Shown in pieces: positions 20,310-63,787 of a DNA stretch of 64,000 nucleotides. Source of the DNA: Allacma fusca. Taxonomy: Eukaryota > Arthropoda > Collembola > Symphypleona > Sminthuridae. The first letter of the stretch is position 1. Each line of letters opens with the position of its first letter. The position numbers and the translations under genes were made by a program. The stretch spans positions 50,441,131 through 50,505,130 of the forward strand of contig OX359247.1 of assembly GCA_947179485.1 (NCBI GenBank), written 5' to 3'. Under the pieces are notes generated by a model. The model saw only the letters and a program-made list of their open reading frames with translations, had not been told where the DNA came from and ran no database searches.

Positions 20310-21795
20310 TTACGACCGGTATTTAAATTTGGGTTTGCGTAGCACACATTATTACAGCGATTGTTCGTTCTTGAATTTTTGCACGATGTTTCAACAAACC
20401 TCACTTGAAATATGAATATGGTTCGGGTAAAAATAGCTCCCAAAATCTAAAAAGATACAGTGGAGTCTTAACACGCATGCTTGAATATTTTCACTTCAAC
20501 TTCAAGTACAAACTGAATTATATTATCCCCCTGTTATACATAGATTCAAAGTTTAGAAATAACAGGTCTGCGGAAAGCTTCCATTTCCATTCTACAAGTG
20601 ACACACAGCAAATCTTCCAACTCTTTGAGCACTGGAAGTAGATGATTAATGACCAATAATTCATATTATAAGCATGTAATTCCAGAACTTACGGTTGTCA
20701 AAATGTAATGCTTCAATAATTGTTAATTAATTAACATTAAACTTTTATAACTGCATGATTTTTACAACCATCTGTAATATTCAATAGCTTATCATAAAAC
20801 TGTCTTACCTTCCCTATGCATTGTAATCTATTGACTTGGCTGCCCAACTCCGCTTGGTTCCTTATGATCTGCCATGTTAACATTAATAATAAATCCAAGG
20901 ATATCTCACAATCTAATAATGTTTTACAACTATTTCATCTTTGTTTTTCTCACATTATTTTGCATGAATTCCCCCAGGACTGTGCACAAAAGGATAACGA
21001 TCATTAGAAAAACCAATAAGAACAGAATAAGAAATTGTCTTGGATCCTCCAAGAACTTGTTTAGAACGATGGGTAATTATATTGACCACTATTGTGACCA
21101 CAATTTCTAAACAGTACCATCTCACAAAATTTGAGTAGGAAGTGTATGCAAGTTTTAGATTTTTAATCAATTCCCAGGATTCGTCTATATTCCTTTTCGG
21201 GATTATTTGAAAAGCCTGCTCACTTTCTTCCCCTAAATACTCAAAGTTGAGGAGCTTCTTGTGACTCCGGATTTTCTCCCCTACTCCTGAAAAAATACTC
21301 GAGGTTCCTCAGAATACTCTTGAACATGCTGTTTTGTATCTCCGTTACATTACAATCGGAAGTCAGGACATATAATTGACAAATAACGGGCTTTTCAAAA
21401 CGGCGTCAAAATGCTGTAGGATCGTTGTAACATTACTTCCTTGACTGCTCGAGTTACTATATAACAGAAGTTGAACAAAATAAATGTAAATATCGCTACG
21501 TACCTTTCAGTGGTATGTTCAATTGAGCTCCCTGGGGAGCTACGACGAAGACTACTATCTTGAATAATACACATTGTTTGACAAACCGTGATTGTTGACT
21601 GGCAGTTGAACACATCAATGTATTAGAAAAGGATAAATACTGATATTTTAGCCGAAGCTCTGCTATACAAATAGAGCTTGTTGTAGAGAGAGCTTTCTGC
21701 AGCAAAGGGAAGTATGTACGTTACTGTAAATGAAGTCTCCACAAGCGAAGAAATAAAGAACCGTCAAAATAATACTTCCCAAATATATCGGATCA
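20255..21795 (-). pseudogene. Gustatory-receptor-like pseudogene (inverted copy of 46383-48150)
   Basis: Several exon remnants line up with the (+) Gr gene at 49162-55174. Near 21490 the minus strand reads ERYVAIFTFILFNFCYIVTR. Near 21150 it reads IKNLKLAYTSYSNFV, matching LIQNLKAVYVLYSDVA of the live gene. Near 20550 an exon contains EWKWKLSADLLF, matching EWKWKSTAGNVF. Near 20440 the last exon contains RTIFIFQV, matching FTIFLFQV. Frames are broken between blocks and there is no usable start. The last exon runs into the hAT MITE at 19757-20309. A nearly parallel set of blocks in the opposite orientation lies at 46383-48150, including intron sequence, so the two are a segmental duplication. 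Confidence 0.75.
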
Positions 21796-28651: not shown

Positions 28652-29948
28652 GGTCACTCGTATTTCACTGACTGGAGATAAGTCAGTTTGAGCATAGTGA
28701 AATTGTTCGTATTAAATCCAAGTAATTTTTTTTAATACAGGTGTATACAGTGTAGGGATATGTGGCAATATCATTTAAGAAATCCGGTTTGGAGACTTGA
28801 TAACGAGCCTTGCTCCCCCATAAAAAAGCAGCAAAAACGCTTTTATGCATTCTATCATATTGAGACTGTGAGAGCGCGATATTTATTTAGTACATATTAA
28901 ATTCAGAACATTGCACAGTGTGGGCAAAAACTCATAGTTTTTCCACGATGAAGCAATGCACGCACAAACATACACTTAAATGAACCTTATGTTGCTTGCA
29001 GCTCTTTTCATTTTGATTGCTGTAATCATCATATCTGTAAGACTTGTTTCATGTAATTTCTGAAGTTTCAATTTTCAGATATTCCCAACATACATAAGCT
29101 GCCTTGGTTTGGTGTGTATGAGTATCAAGGTTTCACAACAAAGTTATGCGATACTTATTAAAGTATCTACATATATATTTTATAATCTATGATGATTACA
29201 GAGTTGAGTTTTAGGAAAATATGGCGAATTCCTTGAAATATTACACAAAAAAATCAGAATAATTCCGAACTAATCTGCACGAACTACACTTATCCAATCC
29301 TATTTGTTCGTGTATAATGGAATTAACCGCAGGTGTACATCCTAAGTACTCTAAATTTTCCCTTCAAAATCAAGGGTTGCATCGTTCCTTTAGGACTCGT
29401 TAAAATATATCATGAAGTACCTTGAAAAAATGCAATTATAATTAATTAAAACTTATATGGTTCGATGGCATTCACTTTTCCCGCTTCCACTCACTTCCTG
29501 CTTCCTGCGTCACTTTCCCCCTAAAAATATTTTTGTTGTATAACCTTACTTATACTTGAATGAACCATGAAAACAAGATGCCTCAGGGATGATAAGATTG
29601 CTTGACTTAATTTAAATAAATCATAAAAATTGTCTCAAACAATATTGAATGTAATCAGGCCTTACCTGAGAATTCTGTATAAAAAATGAGAGTATCTATC
29701 AATGAACCTCGCTCTTGGATTCTAATTAAAACTTGGCCAGTTGAAAAATTTTCCTCACTAACAATAACTGGTTGATTCCTTTTTGATGACTCATGGGTGA
29801 TTAAATTAGTTCCGACCACAGTAGTAGGCAGCGAGAGAATAAGTTTCATTTTAAAAGTCACAGGTTATTGCATGTTTATAATTCAGCTAGAGACACACCC
29901 CGCATTTTCGTACCTCCATTACGAGAGCTCAAAATTTATAGACAAAAA
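28652..29948. promoter_or_regulatory. Shared upstream region of two divergent carotenoid-oxygenase genes
   Basis: About 1.3 kb between two head-to-head paralogues, so it must contain both promoters. Part of it (29245-29440) is a dispersed repeat also found around 55675-56740. A splice-acceptor-like AAGTCACAG lies near 29863, so the (+) gene may have an untranslated or alternative first exon here. No specific binding site can be named. Confidence 0.45.
29245..29440. repeat. Dispersed repeat, copy 1
   Basis: About 195 bases closely similar to 55675-55750 plus 56592-56720. In the second copy the sequence is split by an 841-bp hAT element; here the corresponding site (near 29305) is unoccupied. 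Confidence 0.75.
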
Positions 29949-31853
29949 ATGGAGGAAGCGGCATTTGATTCCAGTTTTTTATTCGCAAATGAAGAGGAAA
30001 CTGGGGATGAAGGTGAAACTGTGGAAATCCAAGGGAATTTTCCTGATTGGGTGAAGGGGACAGTTTTTACTTCGGGACCGGGAAAGTTTCACTTTAAAGA
30101 TTCGGGATTTTCAGTGAACCACTTTAACGACGGGTTTGGCATTATTTGCAAGCTTGCAATTTCTGAGAAAAAAATAACTATATGGAAGAAATTGGTCCAG
30201 TCAGATGCATTGAAAAAGGCAAATGTGGCTGGGAAGACTGTTTTAGCTGAGTATTATACATCGTCATCCACGGATGTGACCAAAAGTACTTTTGGGAGGA
30301 TTGTGACTCTAGTAGGTTTGATTTAGACTTGTTAAAAGAATTAAACTAAAACTTCAGCAAAGGAATCTTAAATTATGTGGAGCCAAATATATGGAGACAT
30401 TTCAAGTCCTAAAATCATTTCGTATTTATTCCTTTTCATATTTTTACACTATTCCCTCAGATACTGTTTTTATGTTTAGAACTTTGCAGAGTTGTTATTG
30501 GGTGAAGAAATTTGTACTCTGGAAAATTATTGCTGATATTACGTATTACTCAAACAACAATACAAAGTATTGGAACATTTTTAAAGTATAGGGTAATGCA
30601 TACTTATTTTGGATAATATTTTAAATAATATATTTATTTTATTGTCACAGGTGCCAGAAAGCACTGATAATGGGAACCACAGTATGTGTTACTTTGGGGA
30701 CCGAATTTACACATTAAATGGACTGGAATATTTTAGAGAGATTTGTCCCACAACTTTGTCCACTGGGACCAAGTACAATACCAACAAATTTGGATTGATG
30801 GGTCAGTCCCCTCATCCATTGGTGGATTACGACGGTACAATGTACAACCTTGGAACCATCATCACATCCACTGGATCCAAGGTGAAAGTTTTCAAATTCC
30901 CAGCTGTCAAACCGGGCGAGAACTTCAAGGATAATATAAAAAACATAAAAATGATTGCAACGTTGCCATCAAGTGGAATCACCTACGCCAGTTTCCAACA
31001 TACCTTTGGAATGTCTGAAAATTATTTTGTCGTGGTAAAGCAGCCGTTTGTTATCAATGCGAAAAAACTCTTTCGCTCTGTACTCACTGGAGGAGCTTTT
31101 AAATTTGAGGATTTTAATGAATGGCATCCCGAAGCAATTATTAATAGGTTTATTATTGTGGAGAAAAGTACCGGTAAAATTCACAGAAGAAAGATAATTT
31201 CATCGGAGCCGTTTTTCTTCCTTCATATTACTAACTGCTACGAGGAAAATAATCAATTAATACTGGATCTTCTGGCGCAACCCGACGATTCGGATGCTTT
31301 AAGAATGTTTCTAAAACCCATTATAGAAGGGGAATGTTGCAATGTAGTGCCCAGTGGAACACTCAAAAGATTCGTTTTACCATTGGCTGAGAATTTACAA
31401 GGTAGATTTGGGTCCGAAGCTTGTTTAGGGGCTGATGGAACTGTGACTGTCACAGGTGGTTGTATGTCTAAAAAAGGGTTGCAACACAGTCTTACCATTA
31501 ATCCAAATTATCGATTTAGAAAATACCGCTATGCTTATGGCAGCGCTGGGTTTTTCTTCCAAGGTCCGTATGCTAACAAAATAACCAAAATAGATTTGGT
31601 AACGGGGAAGGAGAGTTCGTGGGGAATAGGGGAGGATTGTATACTTGGGGAGGTCATTTTCATCCCTAATCCTGACGGTGTCGACGAGGACGATGGGATC
31701 TTGCTTTCAAGCGTTGCTACTGGCTTCCGTAATGGCGGTCAGCGTTATCCCGTTTTCATTGATGCAAAAACCATGGTAGAGGTCGGAAGAGCAGAATTGA
31801 AAAACCCGGTTTCTCATTATTGCCACAGCGTCTTTATTCCATCAATATTTTAG
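29949..31853 (+). CDS. Carotenoid-oxygenase-like protein (BCO/NinaB/RPE65 family)
   Basis: Two exons, 29949-30311 and 30651-31853, joined in phase 0 (donor GTAGGT, acceptor TTATTGTCACAG), encode 521 residues. All four iron-ligand His motifs are visible: SPHPLVDYDGTMYN, SFQHTFGMS, LHITNCYE and YCHSVFIPS. GEVIFIPNPDG..DEDDG supplies the conserved Glu and acidic loop, and RKYRYAYGS the strand before it. The expected function is oxidative cleavage or isomerisation of carotenoids/retinoids. The family's usual 'TE' second-shell Glu after the GD-Y strand is not evident in either paralogue (TLNGLEYF here), so this is a divergent branch. The ATG at 29949 was chosen because the longer frame upstream only opens at a TTG. 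An AATAAA lies near 32061, downstream of the stop. Confidence 0.88.
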
Positions 31854-35384: not shown

Positions 35385-36954
35385 TTAAAGGTTCTTGATT
35401 TGAGCCAAAACAATGAAGTAAGTGGTGACAGTTGCGGCAACCTGAAATATTAATTAAGCATTCTAAATTAAAAGTTGCTCATAAGCTCATTGCAATCAAA
35501 GTATAAACTTACAGATGTTATAAACCCTCTATTCAAGGTATAGAACCCTGCAGGCGAAATCCTGGGGGGTGATGCCGAAATTTTTGTGATCAGTAGTTGG
35601 AGCTGAAGATCACAACATGCACGCAATTTAATACATCGAAATTAATAATGAATATTATGGAATTTTGTTAACTAACATTTTGTGCCACCCGTTCAGGCTG
35701 TTTGTTCAAAGCTTCTATTTCCGCTATATCCAACAGATTCAAAGCCTGAATATCGTACAAAAATACAGAACTTCACCGTGCATGTTCGATTTAAAACAGA
35801 AATACTCAACTGAAAGGCTGTCAATAATATAAGAAATTTACTAAATTTAAAATAAATAATTTTACCTCTTCTTCCATACTACTACACACATTGCATATGG
35901 AATGTAATAGGTATATACAGATCAATAATGTTAGGAACTGATGTGGAACAATAGAATAGGAAATACTTGGTGCGGATGTATTCTGATTTCTAGACTGAAC
36001 TATCACGAATATGAAAAAATAAATTGTAGCCAGAATGGAATACATAAATGTCGGAATTTGGGAAAAAAGTCGAAACCCGAAGGTGGAATTTGCTTCTTTG
36101 ACTAGTTTTAAACACTTATCATAATTTGAAAAAAACTTTGTAAAGTCGTCATCACCGGTTGTATGCTCAGAACGTTTCATGAGAAGCTCGGCCAAGATCT
36201 GGTTTAATTCATGCAGAAACTTTTGAATGATTTGAAAACATATTGTAGCTAGTAAAGCCTGAAAGAGGTACATTGCGAAGGCAAAATTCCAAATGTAATT
36301 GAGAGTAACATTTGCTACAGATATATCGCCATCTCCAGGGTGTTTCGTCGTAAGAGTTCGCAGTAATGCACCCACCATCAGCACAAGAAAAGTAGTAAAT
36401 ACGATCATTATTATTTTGCTCTTCGATTGCATTTGACTTTTAAAGGTCAAGCGTTGATTTTCATTACAATATATGTCCTGGTAAAGTGCTTCTAGATTTG
36501 TCCAAAACCTTCGAAAGGATTCTCGAGAGTAAAATAAATTGATGGTGACAACAATATTGTTAATTAGAAATACGACACCTTGACTTGTGATAACCAAAAT
36601 ATCCAGAGTTACTTCAGTTATGCTAGAGACCCAGTTTTGGTTGGAATTGAAAAACCAAAAAAATCTTAAAACTATAAACAAGTTAAAGAAAACAGTGTAC
36701 CAGGCAGCAAAACTCCTCAGAGTAAAGACCAGCTCGGAACAATTTTCCCTAGTATTAACAACAGAAAATGGAAACTGTCCACAAATTTTGAGAATAGAAA
36801 ACGCAGGATTCATTACTCTAAACATGTACTTTGTTTCCTCAGAAGCTATTGATACTTCTGGGCTTTTAAAACTATTACTCATTTTCCAGGCGGCAATTTC
36901 CTGAACATGTGTAAAGGTTGGTTTTGATACAGTTGAAAATGCTTTGGGCTTCAT
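35385..36954 (-). CDS. Gustatory receptor (insect 7TM chemoreceptor superfamily)
   Basis: Four exons, all phase 0: 36954-35866, 35745-35677 (69 nt), 35602-35513 (90 nt) and 35441-35385 (57 nt), with consensus splice sites, giving 434 residues. The long exon carries at least six hydrophobic segments (for example FFNLFIVLRFFWFF, IIMIVFTTFLVLMVGALL, LFQALLATICFQII, FMYSILATIYFFIFVIV). The short exons supply the Gr C-terminus: GFYTLNRGFITS, then VAATVTTYFIVLAQIKNL, which has the TYhhhhhQ signature of the family. Gr proteins are ligand-gated cation channels of taste neurons with an intracellular N-terminus; the ligand here is unknown. The ATG at 36954 (MKPKAF) was chosen because it is shared with the paralogue at 63787; upstream in-frame codons lack ATG until a TTG. 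It is intact and nearly identical to the gene at 56932-63787. Confidence 0.88.
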
Positions 36955-43672: not shown

Positions 43673-45903
43673 CAGGCGCATAGCCAGGAACTGGCCAAGG
43701 GGTGGCCAACATAATTAGAACGTACATAATATGACATATTCAATGGGAAATCCAATTAACGAATGTAAAACGCATCAAATTTTGCAAACTGAATTTCAGA
43801 TTTTTGTATAGTTCACGTTTTACGATTCCATCATATTTGAATGCTTCGTTTGCTAATCTTTTGACCAGTCGGTCAGTCAGCCCAAACCCTCCGCCGCAAA
43901 CCAAAGAACCAATCTTTCTAACGTGCCCTTTAACAATGTTATCTTGCGGTGCAGTACCTGCCTGGTACAATGAATTTATAACACTGTACAACCTACTACA
44001 AATTCCACAACATGTACAGGGTATTTTGCCTGGTGCGTCCCAGTGGAAATTTTATATAATATACCAGATCTAATGTACAAAATCGGGAAATTTTGAACAA
44101 AATAAAACTCAAGTTTTTGAAAATATTTTTTGATATGTTGTTAATCAGAGAGAAGGAAAATTTACAAAGAATACAATGTGACTAGGGGAATTGACTAGAC
44201 GGATTTGACTAGACTTGACTAGGTAGGCTGGCGGGCGAGGAAAATAGAAATCGTTTGATTTCGCAATGCATTCAATTCACCCGCTAACAAGTAACCCTCG
44301 CCCCATACCCACTCGGGATCGGAATGAAATTTTGTGGGAGCTTGGGTACCTGGCCCAATGTCCCAGCAAGACCAAAAGTTTGGGCCATCTCGCCCTGGTT
44401 TGCGCGGGAAATCGCACAGAAGTTTTAAATTTTAATTCATGAGCATGGGGTCCCCCATGTCCAACTTAAATTTTCCAATGTTAAATCCCATAAGGAAACT
44501 TCATTTTCAAATTTCACAAAAAAAATAAAGTTGCTAAAAATGCATAAAAGCTCATTAATATCCCTTGTAACACAACATTAGCATGTTTGCAAACTTGGTT
44601 TGGGCCATCTCGTCCTCGTTTCCGGTGGAAACCGGATTTACGTTAGAAATTTTTAAAAAAGATAAGGTTCCCTCCCCCCTGTACAACTTACATTTTCCAA
44701 CGTTAAATCCCTTAAGAAAACTCCATTTTCAAATTTCGTGAAAAAAATAAAAATGCATAAAAGTTCATTAATATGCCATACAACATTGTATTAGCACATG
44801 CTAGCCAACTACACCAATAGGACTATTAGTACAAACGTCTTTACTGATTTTAATTTTATACTGTGTGTTATGTTACAATAGTAATTACATTGGAAGCTGC
44901 AAGTATTAACGGTAAAGTATGTTTCAAATTCAATTCAGATTACTGCCACAAATGCTCTTCTATGGTAATTATTATTTGTAGTCATTATAAAGAGCACCTT
45001 TGTTTTGTTCACTTTTTTGACTTCCATTATCACGAATAAAAGAGTACCATAAAATTGAAATACAATTATTATTTTGCCACACAAATATTCGTTCAACATC
45101 GCAACAACGCATTTTTAGCAACTTTATTTTTTTTTGTGAAATTTGAAAATGAAGTTTCCTTATGGGATTTAACATTGGAAAATTTAAGTTGGACCCTATG
45201 CTCATGAATTAAAATTTAAAACTTCTGCGCGATTTCCCGCGCAAACCAGGGCGAGATGGCCCAAACTTTTGGTCTTGCTGGGACATTGGGCCAGGTACCT
45301 AAGCTCCCACAAAATTTCATTCCGATCCCGAGTGGGCATGGGGCGAGGGTTACTTGTAAGCAAGGACGCCCACAATAAAAATATATGCTGTTTATACTCA
45401 CAAGCAAAGTCAAAACGATAAATTTTTACAAAAGCTCTTCGCTTTAATAATGTAATTACATTAACACGTACATACGCGCTAAAGCACGTGCAGCGCTGAT
45501 TGTACATACACTTATGTATAGTGACATGTCTTAACAATGGTTTGGATTTTATTCGAGTTGCGAAAATGGATTTTTCTTATGGGATTTAACATGCAAAAAT
45601 TCAAGCGAGGAAGGGTCAACTTTCAAAAAAAATCAAACTTTCAGATGTCCTACTGCCCGAACCCAGAGGAGGTGGCACGAACTTTGTGGTTTGTGTCAAC
45701 ACTATTAGTAGTGTCTACAATTCCACCAATTTTCATTTAGTTCTGCAGTTTACATCGGAAGACTTTGCTTGTCAGATATTTACATGGGTTACTGCATATG
45801 TTGAGTTTCGCAGTGATTTTACTGTTTACAAATATAAAAAAAGTATTTTATTTCGAAGGGGGGTTCCAAATTTCCCCCATTGCCCTCATTGACTACGCGC
45901 CTG
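43673..45903. mobile_element. hAT-like element upstream of a Gr gene
   Basis: The ends share CAGGCGCRTAGYCA as an inverted repeat. Flanking octamers CATTAATG (43665-43672) and CATCAATG (45904-45911) match at seven of eight positions. No transposase is recognised; a minus frame at 43740-43991 matches nothing I know. The middle is occupied by the large foldback structure at 44287-45357. Confidence 0.75.
44287..45357. repeat. Foldback structure with about 245-bp arms
   Basis: The sequence from 44287 to about 44536 returns in inverted, near-identical form at about 45110-45357, starting ACAAGTAACCCTCGCCCCAT in both arms. A third, more diverged direct copy of part of the arm lies at about 44592-44790. 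An RNA crossing this region would form a long double-stranded stem. Confidence 0.9.
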
Positions 45904-46382: not shown

Positions 46383-48150
46383 AATATATTTCGGAAGTAT
46401 TATTTTGCCGGTTCTTTATTTCCTCGCTTTTCTTTCCTCGCTGAGACCTCGTTTACAGCAATGAACTTAAATGAAATGAAAATGAATAACAGTACGCCTG
46501 CTTTTCAATAATTATTACACTACAGTATTGAACTGCAAGTCAGCAATCAACATTTGTCGAACAATGTGCAAATATTCAAGAAAGGCTTCATCGTATCTCC
46601 CCAGGGAGCTCAAATAAGCATACAACTGGAAAGTATGTAGCCATATTTACATTTATTTTATTCAACTTCTGTTATTTGGTAACTCGCTTATGGAGACTTC
46701 ATTTACAGCAACGTACTTCCCTTTGCTGCAGAAAGCTCGCTACAACAAGCTCTATTTGTATTGCAGAGCTTCGGCGGCAATATCAATATTTATCCTTTTC
46801 TAATACACTTCTGTGTTCAACTGCGAGTCAACAATCACGGTTTGTCAAACAATGTGCATTATTCAAGTTAGACTTCGTAGTATCTCCCCAGGGAGCTCAA
46901 TTGAACATGCCACTGGAAAGTACGCAGCCATATTTACAATTATTTTGTTCAACTTCTGCTATTTGGTAACTCGATCAATCCAGGAAGAAATTTACAACGA
47001 GACTTCAACATTAGTATAGACACCGTTTTGAAAAGCACGTTAATTTGTCAATAATAGGGCCTGGTTTATGATTGTACTATCTGCTACAAAAGTTGGGATG
47101 ACAGCCGGAATGATGCTGGTAATTACGCAAGTATCAGTTGGAGGACTTCTTTTAACTGAGCTGCAAAACAGCGTGTTCAAGAGTATTCTGAGGAACCTCG
47201 AGTATTTTTCAGGGGTAGGGGAGAAAATCCGGAGTCACAGAAAATTCCTCAACTTTGTGTATTTAGGGGAAGAAAGTGAGGGGGCTTTTCAACTATTCCT
47301 GAAAAGGAATATAGACGAATCATGGGAATTGATTAAAAATCTAAAACTTGCATACGCTTCCTTTTCAAAGGTTGTGAGGTGATACTGTCTAGAAATTATG
47401 GTCATAATAGTAGTCAATATACCCATCGTTCTAAGCATGTTCTTGGAGGATCCAAGACAATTCCATAATCTGATCATTTCTCCGTTGCTAATGAGTATCA
47501 TTAGCTTATGTGCACAGTCCTGGGGGAATTCACGCAAAATATTGTGAGAATAACAAAGATGAAAGAGTTGTATAACATTATCAGATTGTGAGATATCCTT
47601 GGATTAATTATTAATATTAACATGGCAGATCATGAAGAACCAAGCGGAATTGGGCAGCCAAGTCAATATATTACAACACCTGTGGAAGTTATGACCATTT
47701 TTAAGTTGATAAATATATTTTTGAATAATTTGGATCGTTTTGAAAACCTTTGGCTATACAATTTTAAGGGTAATTCGTTAAAATTAGTGAAGCATTGTAT
47801 CCTAAAGAGTTTTCATAACAATTTAACAAACTATAACTTCCAGAACTAGAAATATTAAATATTGGTAATTAATTAATCGTTTATTTCCAGTACTCATAGA
47901 GTTGGACGATTTGCTGTGTATCACTTATGGAATGAAAATGGAAGCTTTCCGCGAGATACTTGTTTTTTCTAAACTATGAATCTATAACAGGGGTAAAATA
48001 TAATTCAATTTGTACTTGAAGTTGAAGTGAGAATATTCAAGCGTGCATGTTAACACTCCACTGTATTATTTCAGATTTTGGGAACTATTATTAACGGTAC
48101 CATTTTTGTTTTTCAAATGATGGTGGCTGAAACATCATGCAGAAATTAGT
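46383..48150 (+). pseudogene. Gustatory-receptor-like pseudogene with internal tandem duplication
   Basis: Blocks match the neighbouring (+) Gr gene in order. GKYAAIFTIILFNFCYLVTR lies near 46915; LLLTELQNSVFKSILRNLEY at about 47150 matches VTECQQLVYESILSKMEY; ESWELIKNLKLAYASFSKVV at about 47320 matches ECWELIQNLKAVYVLYSDVA. An in-frame stop follows, then MFLEDPRQF matching IFLEEPGDM. A broken exon lies near 47895, and a last exon near 48085 reads GTIFVFQMMVAETSCRN before a stop. A part of the first exon is duplicated with a period of about 287 bases (46528 and 46815). Stops and frameshifts make it non-functional. Its inverted twin is at 20255-21795. Confidence 0.78.
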
Positions 48151-49161
48151 GAACAAACAATCGTATTAATGAACGCTATGCAAACCCATATTTGAATATC
48201 TATCGTATTATGAAAGCAAAGTCAAAGTTTTTCATTTTGCAGACAATTGTACTTGTCGTGTCGTTAAATTAAAGAGTAAAGTAACACTGACATATGTACA
48301 CCCCATTTTTGTCCCTGGAGAAAGCGTTTTTACTGGGTGGTACTTTATAGATTGAGAACATACTGTGTATACACTCTACAGTACTATAACTGTATACTTA
48401 AAATCTTTCTTGAAAACTTGTCATTGAAAAGTAACACGTAATTGTGAATCTAAAAACAACTTCAATAAAATTTATTCGACAGCAAACATTGACAAAAACC
48501 TCATTAAAATGATGAGTAAGGAATTAAAATTGGTGAAATACTGTTACTCAATAATTCTCCTTTCAAAGTAAGACTTCTTCAAGTTCTGTTCGAATGCTAC
48601 AAGATATGCTAGCATATTCATAGTTTGCTTCGCTGACAGAAAATATGCTCTGATTACTCATTCGCAGGCAAATACCTTTTGTCCGTTAAGTGAATGCTGA
48701 ACTTCGATTTAACTGAAGGTGACTCATTTATTACTAATTTTGCTCAGACCCACACAAGTTTGATAAAAGAAGCACACCACCCAGTAAATTGCTACAATAT
48801 AGAAATAGCACCTATAAAATACATACACTAAGTTGTCACATCCGCTCTAGAGACTTAAGAGACTCGGGAGAAGACCACAATGATTAGACAACTTGATCAA
48901 TTTCCAATTAAATGCCATTTCTTAAACAAGGTTCTCTCAACGACAATTTCAGATCGTTAACTGTCATCCCAATAAGATAGCTCAGAATATTGAGGTGGCT
49001 TACAAGCAGAGCTAGTGCAATTAGTGCTGTATTTATTTCAATTATAAATACTGGTTGTATTATTTCCGCACATTTTACATGAAATATTCCCAGGCATACA
49101 TACAAAATTGAATGTAATTTTCACATCACCCGCTCTCATATTTTGAAACGAAGCCTTTGAC
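48151..49161. other. Intergenic, upstream of a (+) Gr gene
   Basis: No coding sequence recognised. It should contain the promoter of the Gr gene beginning at 49162; no motif can be named. Confidence 0.4.
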
Positions 49162-52100
49162 ATGGGAGGATTTTTTTTCCGAATTTTTGCTGTGATCGGC
49201 GCCCTCCAGGGAATATTTCCAGTTACAAATCCATGGGCGAGACCCGAGCGTCTTAAATTCAAATATTATCACCCGATATTTCTATTTAGTATTTCCCTGC
49301 CCACTCTTTATTTAGTTCTCGGATGGGACATAATCCGGAACAATCCTCCAAAATATCTAAATATACAAGGATCAACATATTCAAGTATCATGTACTACTC
49401 CGTATTAGTTTCCTCACTAGCTAATGCATTTTTGTACCAACTCAATGGTCAAAGAATGTGCAAGCCACCCAGTCTGAAAAACTCAAGCGCCCAAATATCA
49501 CGTTTAGGGCGCCCGTCATTTCAGTGTTCGCCGTAGCCCATGGGTAAGCTACTACATTACAGACGATGTCAAAGCGTCCATTATGGGCAAACATAAATAT
49601 TGGTCGCCTGTTGGCGTCAAATTGACGTCAAAATGCTTCGGATTTTCTTACGTCGCCCCAATGCTCGCATATTGCTTCCAAAATCATACCGCCCCGTGAT
49701 ACGGAAGGGCTACCACAAACGCGCACAATAAAATGATATCTAGGCGACATAAGCCAAGTATGCAGCTTTTAACGCTCACTTTTAATTAGACAGTATTGGT
49801 CTGGTGAACGTAAGTCTAACAACATGTCCAGTATTTCTAAAAGCACTGGAAATAAAACTTTTTGCAGTAGTTATATTTGGTGGCAGTGACGAGGCATCAA
49901 TTGTGCCTGTCCGTTGGTTGACTCATGATCATTTACAGTGTTATTGGCAAGATTTTGTTGGATCCAAATTGCAAAAGGCAGTCGTGAATCCCAATTTAGC
50001 TCCGCATAAAAGCTGGGAACTGCACAACGTTCAAGTTCGCGGGAAATATAGTAAGTTGTTTAAACAAACTACACGCCACATTTAACTCATATTATATATA
50101 TAATACATTAAAATCATAATTTTAAACTTCGCTTGATTTTTGCAGAGACTTTAAAGTCTTCTCGACAAGCTGAGGAGAAGTCCCTGTACACTTCTGCTGT
50201 TGAGAGTGATTCGAGTGAAACGGAAAGTGCGGATGTATCTCCTTCAACGAAATCAAGGGCCAGAACCAGAAGTCATCGTCGGCACAACCTGCGAGTCGAT
50301 TCGGAAGAACGGGAATACGGAGAGGAACGGGATAATCTTATTAACCAACCTCTTGTAATCCCTGATCTAGAGTTATTTCAAAGTAAGTATTTACTTGTGA
50401 AGACTATGTAAAGCAGTACAAAAATTTACGTTAAGATTTGATTTGAATCCAATCATTCTCAGGTAATTTTTCAGGAAATTCGAGTGGTGCTAAGGAACAA
50501 GCTGAAGCTTCTACAAGCACAAACGAGGTTCCAGGCTCAGCGCCAGTATTTTTGACAAGAGATTTGCAAAGTGACCAGATCTTGTTTCAAATACTCTTTC
50601 AAAATGATTGTGTGAATTCATCAGAGGAGAAAATTGATGCATGTACTCAGACTACTTGGAAGGATTATCATGAAAGTAAGCCCACAAATTGTAAATAAAC
50701 AAAACAGTTGTAGTACTCATTATGAAGCTTGTATTTATGTAAGTAGTTTTACATGAGAAATAATTATTAGAGGGCTAATTTTTTTCAGAGTTCCAGGAGT
50801 TGGTACAGAAAAAACTAGCAGATATTCAATTGACACAGGAAAGGATTCTGGTAGTTGTTGGCCAAAACAAGACAGTTAATCTTGAAGATTTTGAATCACT
50901 GCCGATCCCATGTGACTCAAAAGAAGATTTTGATGCTTTGGAGCAATTTGTGGAACGTAAAGAAGAAAAAAGCAAATTTGTTAGTTGTTATTACTTTCGT
51001 AAGAGCCTCATACTATTATTGCGCCAAAGTTCGTTAATATATATTTATTGGAATCAATGGAATCTGGAAATTGTTTTGGAATATTTTTAGGAGAGGTATC
51101 TTTCGTTGCTGGGTGGAGCTACTCTTAAGAAAACAGTGAATAGCATTATAAAACGGATTCTGACGGATAAGTTTGCCATCAGTGTGAGTTTTTCGGGAAG
51201 AGGAAACGCTGAGATGGCATTTGAACATTTTGTAAATGTTCATCAAACGGTGATAAGTATGTTAAAATTTTAATAGTTTTGAACGAGATTGTTTTTACTA
51301 TCACTGGAATTGTTATTAGAGCAGTGGCCGAAGGTTATTCATGCCCGATACCTTCTAAATAATTTGACCATAATATATTATTTATGTTTATGCTATCATA
51401 GGAGCAACCCGGAAGCATGATTGTTACCAGAGCGCAACGTTGGAACAGATTAATAGCAATATAGCTGAGTGGTTGCGTTTGGCAAAAGATGGATCAACAG
51501 GAAGATCACACAAGAAGAAAGGAGAATAACTTTGAGTGGTTATTAATTGACATGTAGTTATAATTATTAGTGATTAAAAATTGTCTTAGATGGCAGGATG
51601 TTCTAGAAGCGTTAAGTACAGAAAGGTATCTGCATTATATCAGTCAATGTTAAGCGAATTAGGTTCTAATCCAAAAAGCAAACTCCTATGCATAGTTGCA
51701 GAAAAGAAACCTGATTTAGTCTGTAGCACAAAGGCAAGTGAAATCGAAGATTTTGTTGACCATTCGAATTTTCATGCTGTAGATCTAGAATCTGACACTG
51801 CTTCTGTAACGGATTCGAATGAAAAAATATTGGAGGTTGAATCCAGTAGCAACGATGTCAACGCATCGAGCAGTGACAGCGATATTGCACACCACCAGTG
51901 CGATTTAAGAGACGATCTGCGCATTTGGCCAGTTCACGGAAATATTCCTTGTGACCACGTTAACAACCTTCTCGGTGTTTTAATAAAACATTTTCCTGAT
52001 CGAAATCTCCCTAAATCAGCTGCAACACTGCTTAAAACCCAGGTAAAATATAATATACAAGAAGTGGCTGGCGGGCAATACTACCATTTTGGTCTAAAAA

Positions 52101-55100
52101 GCAGTCTCCAATCGGTTGAAAAATGTTTTCAAAATTATACAGTCAACCAAATTAATTTGATTGTGGGTATTGATGGTCTTCCACTGAGTCATAGCAGTCC
52201 CAAGTGTTTTTGGCCAACACTTGGTTGTGTTAAAAGTTTAAACGTTTGCCATACCTTCGTTATTGGTATTTATTATGGAGAGTCGAAACCAAATAGTGTG
52301 GACGATTTCTTGTATCAGTTTTGCTTAGAATTCAAAGACACTTAAACACAGGGAATCTTGTTGAATGGGGAAAAGTACAACATTATATTTGATTGTGTAA
52401 TTGCTGACGCACCTGCCAGATCGTTTCTAAAATGTTGCGCTGCTTACAATGGGTACTTTGGTTATGAGAGATGTGTGGTAAAAGGCAAATTTTGCGGAAG
52501 AGTAATTTTTTCTGATAATAAGTGCCGCAAACGAACGGGCTCTTCTTTTAAATTGCTACTAGATTCGGGTCATCATAATGGAGAATCTCCACTTGCTCGT
52601 CTCAATATTGATTTAGTTTCCCAAGTTCCTCTTGACTACATACATATGATTTGCTTAGGAGTTATACGCAAATTGCTACGAGGGTGGGTAAAATTGTCAA
52701 AACCAATTAGCTTAAACCGTAGAAGTATTCAAATTTTAAACGGAGGTTTGCAACGTATTAAACCTTTTATTCCTAGAGAATTTTACAGGAAGCCAAGAAC
52801 TGTTTTTGAAGTAGATAGGTACAAGGCTACAGAACTCAGTTCTTTTTTACTTTATTACGGCCCAGTGGTTTTACAACAAGTTTTGTGCGCAGAAAAGTAT
52901 TAAGATTTTATGATGTTGAGCGTTGGAACCTATATACTTCTGAGTGAAAAAGCGCAGGATAAAGTATGGAATGATCCAGCTAAAACCCTCTTGGTCAAAT
53001 TTGTTTCCAGAATTAGTAGACTTTACTCAAAAGAGTGACTCGTGTACAACGTGCATAGTTTAATACATCTAGCAGATGACGATTTAAAATTTGGGCCACT
53101 GGACAATATTAGTGCTTTTAATTTTGAAAACTTTTTGCAAGGGTTAAAACGGATGATTAGAGGGCGGCATAGCCATTTAGCACAGTGTATACGCCGGATA
53201 TCTGAACTAGGTATACAGTCTTGCCAGATTACATCGTGTCAACCAGAAATGTCAAATCGTCAGGGAGACGATACATTTTTAGACCATAATGGTGATGTGG
53301 TTCAAATTAAAGAAAGTTATGTGACCAATACGAACAACACTAAACTTGTGAAAGGGGTCAAATTTTTAAATGTAAATGATTTGTTCATTATTCCTGTACC
53401 CAGCTCTCTGCTCTCCATTTATCTAGTAAACCATACTAAAGTTACATCCTTGTCAATATTAAATACCGTTAATCTGGTAAGAAAATGTGTTTTTGTACCG
53501 CTAGAAGATCCGCATCATTTTGTTTGTATTCCTATGGTTGCTAATTGTTTAAATAAACGCGTTGTAAAGTAAAATAACCATTATTTTCTGCAATTTCTTA
53601 TTAGCCTCGCCTAGGCATACAAGTGCATATATAAATATGAATCGCCCACAAATTACATTTTCTGCGCCGGCATTACAAAAATTAAGCGCCTTCTGTACTA
53701 ATAATAAACACCCAGGCTACAGATATTTTTCAGCGACGTTACAATAGCCCCGTTCTGGTAGCGACGGTTAAATGATCTCGTTCTGATCCCGGGGCGACTA
53801 TCTGCTGGGCATATGCAATCCTGACCCGCAGGCAGTCCCACGGCTAGCATTGAAATAATGTCACGAAGCGAACATCAAATTGCTGTCGCCCACCCATTTT
53901 CTTCTGACTGGGCAAGCATCCAAATGTGTCGGATACTTGTATTTATTCAAGAAAAGCTCCGCTACGGATCCCCAAAAGAATGGTTCAAACCCTTTAGAGT
54001 GAAATATTTATTATTATGTTCCGTGTCAGGAATTTACTTTGCTTTTGTACTGGCGCATGTGATAAAGGACGGACTTGACGGCCATCTTAATTCGTTTAAC
54101 CATCTTCCGCTGAGAAGCAGTGTTTTTGGGAGCAACCATACCAGTTTGCTGAACTTTGTTATCTGTGCTACTAAAGTACTTTTTAGAACCACTACTATGA
54201 CAGTATTTTCATTATTGATCATTGGCGGAATCTGGGTCACTGAATGCCAACAGCTTGTTTATGAGTCCATCCTTAGCAAAATGGAATATTTTTCATCGAC
54301 ACAGGACACATCCCTATGCTGTGCCTGCATACCCCGTAACCAATTCATCATTGTGACAGGAGGCAGTGGAGTAAAGATGAGGGGAGGAGTTCAGGGATGG
54401 GAGTCAATGAGTAGTGAAGAATGCTGGGAATTAATTCAGAATTTGAAAGCTGTTTATGTTTTGTATTCCGATGTGGCAGGTTCGTACTTTTTAGTGGTAA
54501 TCACTAGTGGAATTCTTTCCTTCACAGTGGGTCTGAGCATTTTCTTGGAAGAACCAGGGGATATGAGTGGTCTGAATTTCATGCTCACTGCAGGAATTTT
54601 TATGGGCGCATCTATAATTTTGGGGGAATTTATGCAAAATAGTGTAAGTTTATACACACCGCCATCAGTGTGGTATATTCTGTCAGTAAAAATAAATATA
54701 GATATTATGATCATTCTTAATTTTTACTAGATCAATCAAAATCAGCAGAGCTTGAAGAATAGAATCGACTTTTTGTCTATGGAAGGGAAGGTATTTTAAA
54801 TTATTATAAGTATATGAGAATTTCGTATAATAATTACACATATCCTTGTATTTAAATTTGAAAAATCTGTAGTGAGCTAATAAGTTGTAATTAATCTGAT
54901 TTTAAAATTCAGTGCCCCAAAAGTTGGAAGATTAATTGCTGTTCTACTTTTACAGAATGGAAATGGAAGTCAACGGCCGGAAATGTTTTTAACATGGATC
55001 TGAAGCTAGTAGCTGGGGTAATATACAACTTCGAAAGGTACATTTATTAACCCAAGACCAATAGTTTAGAGGATTTACTAGAATGTATTATGATTATAGG

Positions 55101-56931: not shown

Positions 56932-59900
56932 TTAAAGGTTCTTCATTTGAGCCAAAACAATGAAGTAGGTGGTGACAGTTGCGGCAACCTGAAATATTAA
57001 TTAAGCATTATAAACAAAAATTGCTCATGTGCTCAATACAATTCAAAATATAAACATAAACTTACAGATCCCAGGTAACACATCATCCTATAATATACGT
57101 TTTTTAAACGTTGCTAGCAAGGTTTAAAATTAGTTTAATAAACGTTGATAACTGGTTCAATTGTAGTTTAAATTTAGGAGAAATGTCCGGCTTAGAATAC
57201 GTTTAAAAAACGTTTATACACATCCCAATTTTCGATGTAATTTGAACGTTAGCAATTTTCTTTTTCTTTCAAAAATATTAAAATTTATTTTGTCACCAGA
57301 CTAGATGATTCCTTTTAATTTTATATTTATGAATAAAGAACCGAATATTGGTTATATGGCAAACACCATTTATGCAAATTATTTATTCAAAATTGCACAC
57401 TAAACGATAAATTTCATTAAAAATGAGACAAACAGAAATAATGACCACTAATTACAGATTGATTGCTAAATTTTTATACAATCACATACATGCAATTATA
57501 AACTACAAACACAAAAAACAATTGTAGGGCTATGGGAATTCGAAAGTAAATTTTAACAATCACAATTTTCGGTTGTCTCCTGCTGCTGTTCAGAAATTAA
57601 TCCGCCGCCACTAAAAAAAATAAGTAGTATCAAATAATTAATATAAGCAAAATAAAAGCCTTGTAAAAGTGATGTTATAGGAATACATCAATAACAGTGA
57701 CTATAAATCAGAAGAAAACCATTACTTTTTTCGGTAAGGAGCTTGCTTAAGCCAATCTTTGATTGCTTTCTCAATGTTGGTTAAGCTCTGCTTTCGTTTG
57801 TAAAACTCAAAAACCGACCCTGTATAACAAAATCACGAATAACGTAAAATATTAGTTGTTATTAGGTTAACTTGATTTATCAAAATGTGTTTTATTTGTA
57901 TATTGTGTATTTGTATGTATTTTGTATTTCAGCGTCGATTCAATTTGACCTGTTTTACTAAAATTCTCGACCTTTGTCAATTTAGCAAATTAGGAAAAAT
58001 CTGAAATGGAATTGTATTTTAAAATGGGGAAGCTTATTTTTTGCATAATACCCATCGTCTATTGCATTTATTGTTGTGAATGTACAACGTATATAAATAT
58101 TTTACTGGAAAGAGTTTGACAAATCCGAAAATCCGAAAATCCCCGTTTTTCTATGCCTCCTTGCTTGTTTCCCCGTCCTTTCCAGTTAAGGTTTGCAGCC
58201 ACATTGTTTGACACAAGTTTGGCTAGGCAATTACGCGTCGTATCCCCCACACTATTTCCTCCAATTCCAAAAAGCAAACAATACTGCAACATGACATATT
58301 ATACTAATTAAATATTGAATTTTAACATTTTCCAACGCAAATAGTTGACGGAGAATCACCAGTTCGGCCTCAATGTCATCATTTGTCATGGCTCTTTCAA
58401 GTTCGTCCAATTCAGTCATAGTTCTCAGTGGCAGTTTGATCGCCTGAGTACGTTTTTCAGGTAAACCCTGTGGCATGTGGTCAAGTTTTGAACTTAAAAA
58501 CTCCAGCAAGTCACCATAATGCTTTTGACGAACTTTGATAAGCTCCACAGATTGAACTAATGTTTGAAGAGTTTCTGCAAAACATTTATGAATATTTTAA
58601 AGTTAACTACACATTTTCTAAATATAACATCAATAAGTAATTTTCGTGCGAATCATACCGAATGAAATTGAAACAAAATTTTGTGAAGTTTGGGGTCTTT
58701 CAGTTGAGCAAGAAGCGACCGGTGAATGAAGACGCTGCGCAGACGTACGTCCGGGTACGGGAACAGTATCGATCGCATCATCCAACTCTACTGATGTTTC
58801 TCGTGACCTACCACCCGAACTTCGGATCAAATTTGGACCTCGTGGATTGTTAAAAATACCTCCGAAATTGGTCTCAATACCGGTCGGGCTTTTCAGAGTT
58901 GGAATTTGAAGTCCGGCCCCCACAGTATTATTATTAGTGTCAGACTCGGATGATGAGAGATTATCTTTGAGTTGCTTGCGTTTTCGTATTTTCTTCGGAG
59001 AAGATGCTGGTAGATTCGTAGTTCTTTTTCGTTTGCCGCGACCTCTTTCACCAGAACTAGATATGTCCGTGACTTTTTCCGAACGATTGGCCTTCTGCCT
59101 GGCAAGTAAATAACTTTCTGGAATTTCCGAAAGACATCGTTAAAATGTTGAAAAGAGTGAATTTGTAATGAAACTACAACTCTGTAATTAATAATAAGAG
59201 TTACATAAGTTAATTACCATACGGTCCCCAAAATTTGCAGACGCCATATTTTGGCCATTTGTCTTTATCTGGAATTTTCATGGATTTAATTGCTACTGTT
59301 ATTTGGCTTATTGTCAGTTTTTCCGGTGGAGGCCAATAACAATTTTTGTTGCTATCAGTTAACCATGATTCTGGAACTGCTTCAACCTCACGAACACCCT
59401 TTCGGGATGAAAATTCGACAACTACGAACATTCTAATTCTAAAGAAAAATAATAAGTTAAAATAATTTCATTAGGTATGTAGTAATGGCATAATTACAAA
59501 ATACATAGAGCTAAAAGGCAACGCTATGCATTTTTTGGAAACATCACTAATTTTCCTCAGGACAACACGGTAACTACGAATTTTAATTTTATAAGTACAT
59601 AGCACTGTTGAATTGCATGGCACGTTGTAAAGTTTTTGCCTATTATCATAAAGGTTACAAACTATGTACATGTCTTCTATTTCGTCGCCGGCAATATTTA
59701 TTATTGACACAATTTCCCCCGAGGTAAGATAGCAGTAGCTGTCTTTGTTATTGCATTTTAAACAGTAGTTCTTCAAATTGACCTTTTTGAATTGCATTTT
59801 AAACTGACGATTTAATGTTGGTCCGGTGTGATGCAATCCCTCATACGTTATTTGTGAGTAACACTTGTAAGTTTTAATATTATTTAATTCTTGTAGCCGT

Positions 59901-62900
59901 CGTGCAACTTGTTGCAGCGGTTTATGTTGTGACCTTACAAGCTTCTTTACTTGTTGAAGATGGTTTTCGAAAGGGAACCCACTGAAATTTTCCAGTACAC
60001 CAAATCGTTTACATTCTGCGGGAAGATGAAGAAGCCCGTGTACGTTAAAGCTGAGATTTTCTTTTCCGTAAAAGAAATCGAATTTGCTGACAAAGTATTG
60101 AAGCAACTCTCCTGCAAATTCTACATAGTTATCAATAAGAGTTTGATTGGATAGTATCGTAGCAGCTACATGAAGCGAAAGAAAATGTTGATAGTATTCT
60201 GGATCCAAACTCTTTAACACAAGCGGTCCGTAGTACAGCAAAAACGCCCGTAGCTCTGTGGCTTTCCAGCGATCTAATTCCTTCAAACTTCTGGGCTTTC
60301 GCGAAAATTCACTACACACATATTTGCTGAAATTCAGGAGAGCTGCAGATATCTGTTTCCGCTGTGTCATTGAAAGTCTGCATTTTGCGAAGTTTCCTCT
60401 TGTCCACATTATCAGTAATTTTCGCGTAACACCAAGATAGAGTAAATGCATTGGATCATGTGGTAATTGGGACACCATTCCGACTTTCAAATTTAATAAG
60501 GCGGACACTCCATTATGGTGAGATTTTTGCTGCTGTATTTTGAATGAATGATTCGTTCTCAATGTGCTCATTGAACTTGATTAAACTACTCGTCCTTTAT
60601 AGTAGCAACCTTTTTGGATACATTTGCCGCATCCATAGTAGGCGTTATGTCCCTTAACATTTGCTATGAATGCCCGTGCGGGAGTGTCGCAAATAATTTT
60701 AGAAATGCTAACTGGAATTTTGCAGTTTTTACTTGTTTCGAAGCCTTGTCGTTGTAGATTCCGAACATCGGCAATGAAATCTTTCAAATATTCATTAGGA
60801 CAATTTGGCTTCTTATTTCCATGGTAAATTCCAACCAAAAATGGTTTAGCGTTTGGAAGGTTTGCGATTCGACATTGAATGGGCCAGAGTTGGCTACTGC
60901 TGCTTCTACTAATAGGAAGACCGTCTACATTTACATCCAAAAATATGTGCTGCAAATCCTGCATGTCTTCAATAATTTTTTCCAAACTGCACGTTAATGG
61001 GAAATGGCAGTAAACCCCAGGGCAAACTTCTCGCTCTTGAATATTACGAGGTGTCTTTAAGAGGCAGCGAGCATCGTTTGGCAATCCAGTTGAGCTTAGC
61101 GAAGAATTTAAAACTTTAAGTAGATCCGATACTGCACAATGGGTAACATTATGAGTTAGAGCCCAGCTTCGTAAATTCGCCACTAAATTATTAGTTTTGG
61201 AACCACCGAACGCCTGATCTTCTTCATCATCAAAACTGTCACTACGATCATTCTGTGCTGAAGGACTTCGGTTAGGAATTTCAGTCGCGTTATCTTCAAA
61301 ATCGGTGCCCCACCTATTATTCGGTATTGCATCACTGGGTAATACTGCCTGATCATCTGGTCTTTGAAATGACCCACCAGTTATTATTTGGAAGCTCCTT
61401 AAAGTCTGAGCTACAATGCGCCGGTGGTGCCTTGACTTTTTGCGAAGCATGTTCAACAATATACATATGTAAACTACAATGAATGTATTTGGAGCCCTGA
61501 AAAACTTACAATGATCGAATTCTTCTCCGGTTTTCTCCACTCCAGCTCTCCACAATTTAAATATTAAAACTTAGGTCTGTTTAAAGTATAAAAGTTAAGT
61601 TCACAATAAAATCAGTCGAGTTGCTTCAATCACAGTTTTCAGATTCCTGAAGATGGATGCTCTACGATAGGATCCTGTCCGCCTACCTTATATGAAGACT
61701 TTGAACTATCTGCAGTACGCTTGTTGAAAACAATGCCATTGTCCGTTGTTCTTCCATCATACGCGCCAAAGAAATCCCTCGCAAAATTTGATCACTAGAG
61801 AATTCAAAGCTCAGTCTTGTCAGTTTCAATGCACGCATTTTGCTCTCGCTATTAAGACTTTGTCATACATATTCATGAAATACCTTATTTATAGGGTCAT
61901 CATAATTGAAATTATCCATACATGTGCTGTTACACTGAGAATACACTGCATGTTTAAAATGTGTTAGTTTCCATAGATGTAGTTACCTATGTACGTTTGG
62001 AGAGTAAAATCGAGTCCTTGCTATAATAATTTCTTTTAATATATAGGAATGCTTTGATTTTACGTGAATCTCTCACTACATACAATGAAAAATATTTTTT
62101 TCAATAGCCTGAAGACAATAACCCGAAAAGAAATGCACAGAATTTTATTCAATCAATCTACTAGTAAAAGTAGTAAATAAAAATATGCAATGGTATATAT
62201 TTCACAGATACTAAACAAGTTTAAGAAAATCGCTTAATTAACGTTTATACTATACGTTCAAATTGGGGACTTATTTGGACGTGTTTTTAGCGTTATTATT
62301 TGGGTGATTCACAAACGTTTTCAACTTCACCGGTTCTGAAACGTTTAAAATCAGTAGATGTGTTACCTGGGATGTTACAAACCCTCTATTCAGGGTATAG
62401 AACCCTGCAGGCGAAATCCTGGGGGGTGATGACGAAATTTTTGTGATCAGTAGTTGGAGCTGAAGTTCACAACATACACGCAATTTAATACATCGAAATT
62501 AATAATAAATATTATGGAATTTTGTTAACTAACATTTTGTGCCACCCGTTCAGGCTGTTTGTTCAAAGCTTCTATTTCCGCTATATCCAACAGATTCAAA
62601 GCCTGAATATCGTACAAAAATACAGAACTTCACCGCTCAACAAAAAATACTCAACTGAAAGGTCAGGGCTGTCAGTAATATAAGAAATTTACTAAATTTA
62701 AAATAAATAATTTTACCTCTTCTTCCATAGTACTACACACATTGCATATGGAAAGCAACAGGTACATACAGAGTAGTAGTGTTAGGAACTGATGTGGAAT
62801 AATAGAATAGGTAATACTGGGTACGAATGTATTCTGATTTCTAGATTGAACTATCACGAATATGAAAAAATAAATTGTAGCCAGAATGGAATACATAAAT

Positions 62901-63787
62901 GTCGGAATTTGGGAAAAAAGTCGAAACCCGAAGGTGGAATTTGCTTCTTTGACTAGTTTTAAACACTTATCATAATTTGAAAAAAACTTTGTAAAGTCGT
63001 CATCACCGGTTGTATTCTCAGAACGTTTCATGAGGAGCTCGGCCAAGATATGATTTAATTCATGCAGAAACTTTTGAATGATTTGAAAACATATGGTAGC
63101 TAGTAATGTCTGAAAGAGGTACAAGGAGAAGGCAAAATTCCAAATGTAATTGAGAATAACATTTGTTACAGATATATCCACATCTCCACGGTGTTTAGTC
63201 ATAAGAGTTTGCAGTAATGCAACCACCTCCAGGACAAGAAAAGTAGTAAATACGATCATTATTATTTTGCTCTTCGATTGCATTTGACTTTTAAAGGTCA
63301 AGCCTTGATTTTCATTACAAAATATGTCCTGGTAAAGTGCTTCTAGATTTGTCCAAAACCTTCGAAAGGATTCTCGAGAGTAGAATAAATTGATGGTGAC
63401 AACAATATTGTTAATTAGAAATACGGCACCTTGACTTGTGATAACCAAAATATCCAGAGTTACTTCAGTTATGCTAGAGACCCAGTTTTGGTTGGAATTG
63501 AAAAACCAAAAAAATCTTAAAACTATAAACAAGTTAAAGAAAACAGTGTACCAGGCGGTAAAACTCCTCAGAGTAAAGACCAGCTCGGAACAATTTTCCC
63601 TAGTATTAACAACAGAAAATGGAAACTGTCCACAAATTTTGAGAATAGAAAACGCAGGATTCATTACTCTAAACACGTACTTTGTTTCCTCAGAAGCTAC
63701 ATATATTTCTGGGCTTTTAAAGCTATTATTCATTTTCCATGTGAGAATTTCCTGAACATGTGTAACGGTTGATGCTTTGGGGTCCAT
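56932..63787 (-). CDS. Gustatory receptor carrying a 5.3-kb transposon at its exon 3 edge
   Basis: Exons 63787-62717, 62602-62534 (69 nt), 62459-62372 (88 of the usual 90 nt) and 56988-56932 (57 nt). The protein is nearly identical to the Gr at 35385-36954: hydrophobic segments FFNLFIVLRFFWFF, LFQTLLATICFQII, FMYSILATIYFFIFVIV, then GFYTLNRGFVTS and VAATVTTYFIVLAQMKNL with TYhhhhhQ. The frame is open throughout. A transposon (57070-62371) lies 2 nt before the exon 3 end, with target duplication AT. Reading the coding strand into it gives TCC CAG|GTAACA, so a strong donor supplied by the terminal repeat lies one codon past the normal end and in the same phase. Splicing there to exon 4 would add a single Gln. 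The start ATG (MDPKAS) matches that of the paralogue. Expression or function is not shown. Confidence 0.85.
57722..59431 (-). CDS. DUF4806-type accessory protein of transposon copy 2, intact
   Basis: Five exons, 59431-59218, 59117-58659, 58574-58360, 58283-58106 and 57819-57722, total 1164 nt (387 residues) with every junction in phase. The N-terminal module reads MFVVVEFSS..VPESWLTD..CYWPPPEKL, then KYGVCKFWGPYG. The middle is basic and disordered-looking (GERGRGKRKRTTN, SPKKIRKRKQLK), suggesting nuclear localisation and DNA binding. The C-terminal DUF4806 region has PLRTMTELDELERA, FGIGGNSVGDTTRNCLAKLV, AANLNWKGRG and FEFYKRKQSLTNIEKAI. The donor at the end of exon 3 (GTGATT) is the least certain. 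DUF4806 proteins are abundant in arthropods and cnidarians and usually uncharacterised; here one is physically part of a transposon. Confidence 0.82.
59471..61450 (-). pseudogene. Transposase_21-like transposase of copy 2, one nonsense codon
   Basis: A single 660-codon frame from MLRKKSRHHRRIVAQTLRSF, interrupted once by TAA at 60581-60583, where copy 1 has Phe in GRVIFS. Blocks: IFLDVNVDGLPISRSSSSQL..WPIQC, FLVGIYHGNKKPNCP, KIICDTPARAFIANVKGHNA, YYGCGKCIQKGCYYKGRVV, HHNGVSALLNLKVGMVSQLP, DPMHLLYLGVTRKLL, FNVHGLLHLPAECKRFGVLE and FPFENHLQQVKKLVRSQHK. The Asp residues in VDGLP and ICDTPARA are the likely metal ligands of a DDE/D site. It is otherwise undamaged, so inactivation, if the stop is not suppressed, is recent. 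Family naming is from memory of the invertebrate CACTA/EnSpm-type proteins. Confidence 0.78.
61451..62371. other. Right subterminal region of transposon copy 2
   Basis: Non-coding. AAACGTTT-type motifs near 62240-62350 and the terminal repeat at its end. It presumably holds the promoter of the transposase gene, which reads leftwards from 61450. Confidence 0.5.

Follow-up and report, generated by a model that had tools for sequence, protein, structure and literature searches.

The window analysed here comprises 64,000 nucleotides (nt) from the collembolan Allacma fusca (Symphypleona; Sminthuridae), positions 50,441,131 to 50,505,130 of the forward strand of contig OX359247.1 in GenBank assembly GCA_947179485.1. 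At its right edge, with the minus strand as sense strand, lies a gustatory receptor (Gr) gene whose third exon is interrupted by a DNA transposon of 5302 base pairs (bp; 57070-62371), and an intact paralogue is located 27 kb away. A terminal inverted repeat (TIR) of the transposon places a candidate 5′ splice site close to the position of the displaced one, and a first-pass annotation of the window proposed that the element acts as an instant intron and that the receptor may remain functional.

The interrupted receptor gene and the inserted element

The exons of the interrupted gene were placed by eye against the intact paralogue and then translated. In the paralogue, exons 1-3 and the start of exon 4 span 35441-36954 of the minus strand, with exon 3 ending at 35513 and an intron 3 of 71 nt (35442-35512). 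Exon 1 (62717-63787), exon 2 (62534-62602) and exon 4 (56932-56988), the last carrying the TYFIVLAQ motif, were fitted on the same strand, while exon 3 would occupy 62367-62459 if the TIR donor is used, its 93 nt consisting of 88 host nt and the sequence CCCAG; all four are in phase 0. As the first-pass annotation anticipated, the predicted spliced product, of 429 amino acids, contains no stop and one extra Gln. The profile of the 7tm_7 family (PF08395; cut-off 26.6 bits), applied to the whole protein, gives 103.1 bits for the paralogue and 86.2 for this product, and on the evidence of its sequence the interrupted gene belongs by descent to the insect gustatory receptor family. Neither Gr exon 1 nor the full paralogue protein found a match in protein searches. 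Nonsynonymous (dN) and synonymous (dS) divergence between the two genes are 0.042 and 0.087 (41 and 23 changes), the latter corresponding to 8.7%. Identity across the pair (35513-36954 and 62372-63787) is patchy, with stretches of 100% beside others of 86-89%, a pattern that gene conversion might leave. The assembly holds no empty-site copy of the interrupted gene in a DNA search, in which both matches (2/2) are this gene and its paralogue.

An apparently CMC-related (CACTA/EnSpm-like) DNA transposon has inserted in the last codon of exon 3, 2 nt before the exon end. With slashes marking the element boundary and the candidate splice point, the minus strand reads ...GTA ACA T/CC CAG/GTAACACATC at the junction, where the paralogue reads ...ATA ACA TCT/GTAAGT. 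The element's five leading bases, CCCAG, would thus finish exon 3 as GTA ACA TCC CAG and re-form the Ser codon, and the last two bases of the exon (CT, 57066-57067) and the old donor GTAAGT (from 57065) remain displaced beyond the element (57060-57067, minus strand). The junctions, the position of the insertion and its length of about 5.3 kb are all as the annotation had described them, apart from a one-base slip: CAG ends at 62367, and 62366, given there as its last base, is the first base of the candidate intron. The termini are CCCAGGTAACACATC upstream (62357-62371, minus strand), which contains the donor CAG/GTAACA, and GATGTGTTACCTGGG downstream (57070-57084), where CAG/GTAACA stands on the plus strand. 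Since both TIRs carry this sequence, insertion in either direction gives a donor at the upstream end. The inverted ends are perfect over 15 bp and are flanked by a target-site duplication (TSD) of AT (62372-62373 and 57068-57069, minus strand); the flanks rejoined without the element equal the paralogue, which represents the empty site, plus one additional AT. True transposition is shown by the perfect inverted repeat at the ends, by the duplication and by the existence of another copy flanked instead by AA. Retention of the frame is less striking: of 1227 possible insertion points across the three exons that bear a donor, 407 preserve it, and 12 of the 1227 do so with a net change of at most two codons.

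The element carries subterminal repeats and two genes in the orientation of the Gr gene. The transposase frame (59471-61570, minus strand; 329 + 369 codons, with one in-frame TAA at 60581-60583) has DUF1258, DUF4218 and Transposase_21 relatives, and structure comparison predicts a BAH-like fold at its C-terminus. For the transposase half, Foldseek found nothing at E<=0.001, and the RAG1-like and BAH-like resemblances come from a second comparison; comparison with solved structures gave two matches (E 0.22 and 0.31), scans of viral contigs for the transposase found no relatives, and an Rfam scan found no matches. The probable second gene, with several exons placed by eye (57722-59438, minus strand), has a weak DUF4806 match of 14.5 bits (cut-off 25).

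Two further full copies bear on the age of the insertion. The copy at G000:C9:6017535-6022836 is identical over 5302/5302 bp, transposase stop included, and has the duplication AA where the Gr copy has AT; a third, on C48, is 95.4% identical, is flanked by TC and retains an open transposase frame of 698 codons, so that the duplication is 2 bp in 3/3 full copies. A genome search with the upstream 400 bp, whose counts concern the upstream end and are lower bounds, recovered these three and one 75% match, a decayed fragment without the end. Beside the full copy on C48, the loci L010 and L011 (G000:C48:228800-245600) contain units repeated in tandem every 4746 bp, each with a cut copy of the transposon; two of the units differ at 0/4279 compared bases.

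The absence of differences over 5302 bp sets an upper 95% bound of 0.057% on the divergence of the identical copies, which a Drosophila rate converts to roughly 100,000 generations. This dates the separation of the copies and not strictly the Gr insertion, because the Gr copy could be the source: if it is the younger of the two, the insertion is equally recent, and if the C9 copy derives from it, the insertion may have a greater age. Compared with C48 over 658 aligned codons, with one stop codon omitted, the transposase shows dN 0.020, dS 0.067 and dN/dS 0.30 (30.5 nonsynonymous and 26.5 synonymous changes), which limits a neutral stay at the Gr site to about 2% divergence at most, even on the assumption that all nonsynonymous change fell within that stay. 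The Gr insertion is therefore likely, though not proven, to be very recent. Set against the 8.7% synonymous divergence of the Gr pair, a neutral stay of at most about 2% means that the open frame was maintained mainly by selection preceding the insertion, and hence that it is no proof of present function. For the same reason, dN/dS of the interrupted gene against its paralogue was rejected as evidence of function, most of that divergence being older than the insertion.

Splicing of the transcript and function of the receptor

Splice sites were scored with fly-like matrices not trained on the host species. The TIR donor scores 7.39, compared with 4.86, 6.36 and 3.94 for the native donors, and its predicted pairing with U1 is -8.0 kcal/mol, compared with -5.4, -6.9 and -1.5. 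By matrix it ranks within the top 1.57% when every GT site on both strands of the window is scored, and by U1 pairing within the top 1.07% of 1500 sampled sites. These values agree with the first-pass description of the terminal repeat as an in-frame 5′ splice site, and the donor is probably recognised; four GT sites within the element (61686, 61377, 61313 and 58811) outscore it. In terms of gene structure, the insertion lengthens intron 3 and no new intron position arises.

The acceptor side is more contested. The native exon-4 acceptor is intact, with a score of 5.05 that ranks it 36th among the 282 AGs between 30 nt past the new donor and position 56900. Having served an intron of 71 nt, it now lies 5.4 kb from the TIR donor, beyond better-scoring acceptors. 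The nearest high-scoring decoy, TTATTGTCTTCAG/GCTATTG (exon-side start, 62099-62108, minus strand), scores 7.76 at 62108, only 258 nt from the TIR donor, and its use would add ten codons and then a stop. The element also contains six AATAAA signals in the sense orientation (62149, 59702, 58072, 57896, 57387 and 57289), the first of them 222 nt inside it.

Correct joining would itself have a cost, as the added Gln would fall in S7b. In the accessible text on BmGr9, the motif TYhhhhhQF is placed in S7b, a helix lining and gating the pore, T429 and T436 are described as two rings of hydroxyls able to stabilise cations, and altered S7b packing is said to disturb gating (PMC11100771). Counting residues back from the motif, with which the alignment to a third solved Gr agrees, we infer that the Ser preceding the junction corresponds to T429; the Gln would then sit between the two rings and rotate one relative to the other. 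The segment before TYFIVLAQ has equal length and the same intron place in both other Gr paralogues of the window, the intact paralogue and the third paralogue both running ungapped through S7b to TYhhhhhQ, which the predicted product of the interrupted gene does not. The paralogue also aligns without a gap at the junction site to three solved relatives, MhOR5 (38.3 bits, E 6.5e-9), Gr43a (18.5 bits, E 0.0069) and, weakly, the third Gr (14.0 bits, E 0.15), whereas the product of the interrupted gene aligns to MhOR5 at 26.0 bits with a gap required at the Gln and has no match to Gr43a or the third Gr at E<=10. Adding a Gln to the paralogue at the junction lowers its 7tm_7 score from 103.1 to 94.0 bits, a loss of 9.1; at six other places, all in loops or soluble helices and none in the core of a membrane helix, the score is 99.2 to 104.7 (loss -1.6 to 3.9).

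The reading that we favour, at somewhat better than even probability, is that the TIR donor is used but that correct joining is minor or the receptor impaired, leaving an allele that is probably null or weak. The two-gene, apparently CMC-related transposon entered the last codon of exon 3 and pushed the old donor 5.3 kb downstream, its TIR, by sequence a stronger 5′ splice site, taking nearly the same place. By this account, the spliceosome would end exon 3 at the TIR donor, and acceptors would compete: the native one would give a receptor with one added Gln in S7b, and acceptors or polyadenylation signals within the element would give truncated products without the TYhhhhhQ pore motif. Since we expect little correct joining, or an impaired receptor from it, a null or weak allele is the probable result. 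Several points weigh against this. The other acceptors of the gene score 5.1 and 3.8, no better than that of exon 4, and an acceptor may therefore be in use in spite of a low score; splicing of long introns is routine; and both donor and acceptor scores come from matrices not fitted to the host. Other substitutions explain part of the difference in 7tm_7 score between the interrupted gene and the paralogue, the Gln controls are limited to loops or soluble helices, and one added residue in S7b might be tolerated. The identity of the two copies also leaves open which insertion came later.

A plain null allele, in which the TIR donor fails and splicing passes over exon 3 or the transcript is cut short within the element, is a serious contender, though we consider it clearly less probable. 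Exon 3 has only 93 nt and now adjoins a long intron, a skip from exon 2 to exon 4 would stay in frame while dropping 30 exon 3 codons ahead of the TYFIVLAQ helix, and the AATAAA at 62149 is an early one; set against this, the TIR donor scores above the donors of exons 1 and 2. The original proposal, in which the TIR donor joins exon 4 efficiently, the element leaves with the old intron 3 and the receptor with its added Gln works, appears unlikely. Its strong in-frame donor, native acceptor and stop-free product have been borne out, and intronised transposons have precedents in Ds1 (PMC5432752, in the part available) and in an introner of Aureococcus (PMC9860276, likewise). What has not stood is the step from an open frame to function, since the frame reveals little at the probable age of the insertion, better-scoring decoy acceptors and same-strand AATAAA signals intervene, and the Gln disrupts a spacing kept in the three solved relatives and both other paralogues of the window.

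Removal by SOS splicing, an animal pathway in which an element is excised from messenger RNA through pairing of its ends and without the spliceosome, is highly improbable here. Pairing of the ends is a requirement of the pathway, and the two 120-nt ends of the element can pair at -46.4 kcal/mol, whereas 100 shuffled sequences average -24.2 and go no lower than -39.1; however, the perfect repeat is just 15 bp, and clean excision would leave an extra AT from the duplication and with it a frameshift. The pathway is described in the accessible part of a review (PMC13247085). An assembly artefact, for which no supporting point was found in the one assembly examined, is scarcely credible given the clean 2-bp duplication and perfect ends, the three copies each with their own duplication and flanks, and the lack of an empty-site copy of the gene.

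If the TIR splice is used, the locus offers an observable case of a transposon end replacing a 5′ splice site, with the intact paralogue 27 kb away serving as control, alongside the identical transposon copy on another contig. If it is unused, this is a loss-of-function allele within a receptor cluster. Under either outcome, the case is a warning that a frame still open next to an insertion of probably recent date does not show that a gene works.

Relatives of the element and neighbouring features

Of 1252 candidate places in the genome, 111 are scored matches to the transposase half, and many of these have frames open over at least 640 codons; the best 30 of the 111 were oriented and aligned all against all. 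A left end was obtained for 21 of these 30 loci, which form eight other groups; three belong to the subfamily of the Gr element, and six (L035, L040, L044, L045, L046 and L049) gave none. The left ends of the eight groups are CCCATGCAGCAC (two groups), CCCAAGCAGCAC (two), CCCAGCCAGCAG, CCCAGCCCGCAC, CCCAGCTCGCAC and CCCAGCTAGCAC, and their inverted repeats were inferred from these; the left limit of L024/L026, ambiguous in the alignment, was set at CCCA. Among these best 30 matches, none of the eight other groups (0/8) has a GT within the 12 nt at its left tip, and the best donor score in their left ends, over the 23-35 nt scored, is 3.0. Two positions distinguish the nearest, CCCAGCTAGCAC, from CCCAGGTAACAC, and jointly these create the donor. 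A terminal donor as a family-wide trait was thus rejected, being missing at the left end in 8/8 other resolved groups. Among the groups compared, the donor appears particular to one subfamily, and chance drift in the ends would explain it most simply.

Genome-wide abundance of such ends was likewise rejected: CCCAGGTAACA has 51+37 occurrences, compared with 85+92 for the reversed pattern, and since the latter is commoner, the matches mostly look like chance; none of eight short CCCAGGTAACA loci (0/8) has an element match. A broader proposal, which we regard as doubtful and speculative, is that one subfamily of a large, still mobile group shifted its TIR from the CCCAGC type of its relatives to CCCAGGTAA, thereby gaining a strong donor at each end; in either orientation an insertion would then offer a 5′ splice site five bases in, softening insertions near exon ends and perhaps aiding the persistence of the subfamily. 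Were this true, the Gr insertion would be an intron extension in progress, less than about 100,000 generations old if the Gr copy is the younger of its pair.

Among loci L020-L049, several pairs of related transposases share 99.8-100% identity over 3.8-4.0 kb, suggesting that a number of subfamilies have recently been active. The window itself contains a second, related and apparently decayed transposase within 51590-53572 (plus strand; frames 51590-52345, 52358-52903 and 53042-53572), recognised by eye from common motifs, around which no convincing terminal repeats were found. Elsewhere in the window, frames at 26913-31853 resemble, by eye, two carotenoid-oxygenase-type genes on opposite strands; an inverted repeat of about 1 kb and 81% identity links 20311-21347 with 47153-48207, and an inverted pair at 44283-44543 and 45109-45361 is 94% identical.

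Comparison with known systems

Among related transposons, CACTA/EnSpm and other CMC elements share with the Gr element an apparently related transposase, a second gene and subterminal repeats, and differ from it in that the Gr element has a CCCA end, a 2-bp duplication and a predicted BAH-like transposase C-terminus. CACTA elements proper generate a 3-bp target duplication, compared with 2 bp in all three full copies here. Their termini, CACTA...TAGTG in the accessible text of PMC4158355, differ from the CCCAG...CTGGG of the Gr element. As regards removal from RNA, SOS splicing resembles the present case in that an exonic transposon could be removed, and differs in that the GT-AG model keeps the frame at the Gr gene. 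SOS splicing is not known to use GT-AG sites. In the literature searched, outside which most subscription papers lie, no CMC-type end acting as a splice donor in an insect was found.

Insertions of maize Ds and Ds1 in exons are reportedly spliced as introns (work attributed to Dennis 1988, Wessler 1991 and Giroux 1994). These elements belong to the hAT family. Like the Gr element, they are DNA transposons in exons, with donors at the element start and a host acceptor that may serve; unlike it, they are small and backed by RNA evidence, whereas the Gr element is CMC-like and 5.3 kb long, with splicing predicted from sequence. According to the part of PMC5432752 available, exonic Ds1 can supply both donor and acceptor sites. 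Introners, in the accessible text of PMC9860276, likewise have cut-and-paste ends with a TSD and carry one splice site while borrowing the other, and an Aureococcus introner adds four residues once spliced. The Gr element carries at least one predicted splice site, as an introner does. Introners, however, make many introns genome-wide, many copies serving as introns in many genes, whereas the upstream end of the Gr element was found at no fewer than four places, one of them a decayed fragment, and lengthens an existing intron. Transposon ends acting as splice sites are thus already known from Ds1 and introners, and it is with these, by analogy, that the Gr case belongs.
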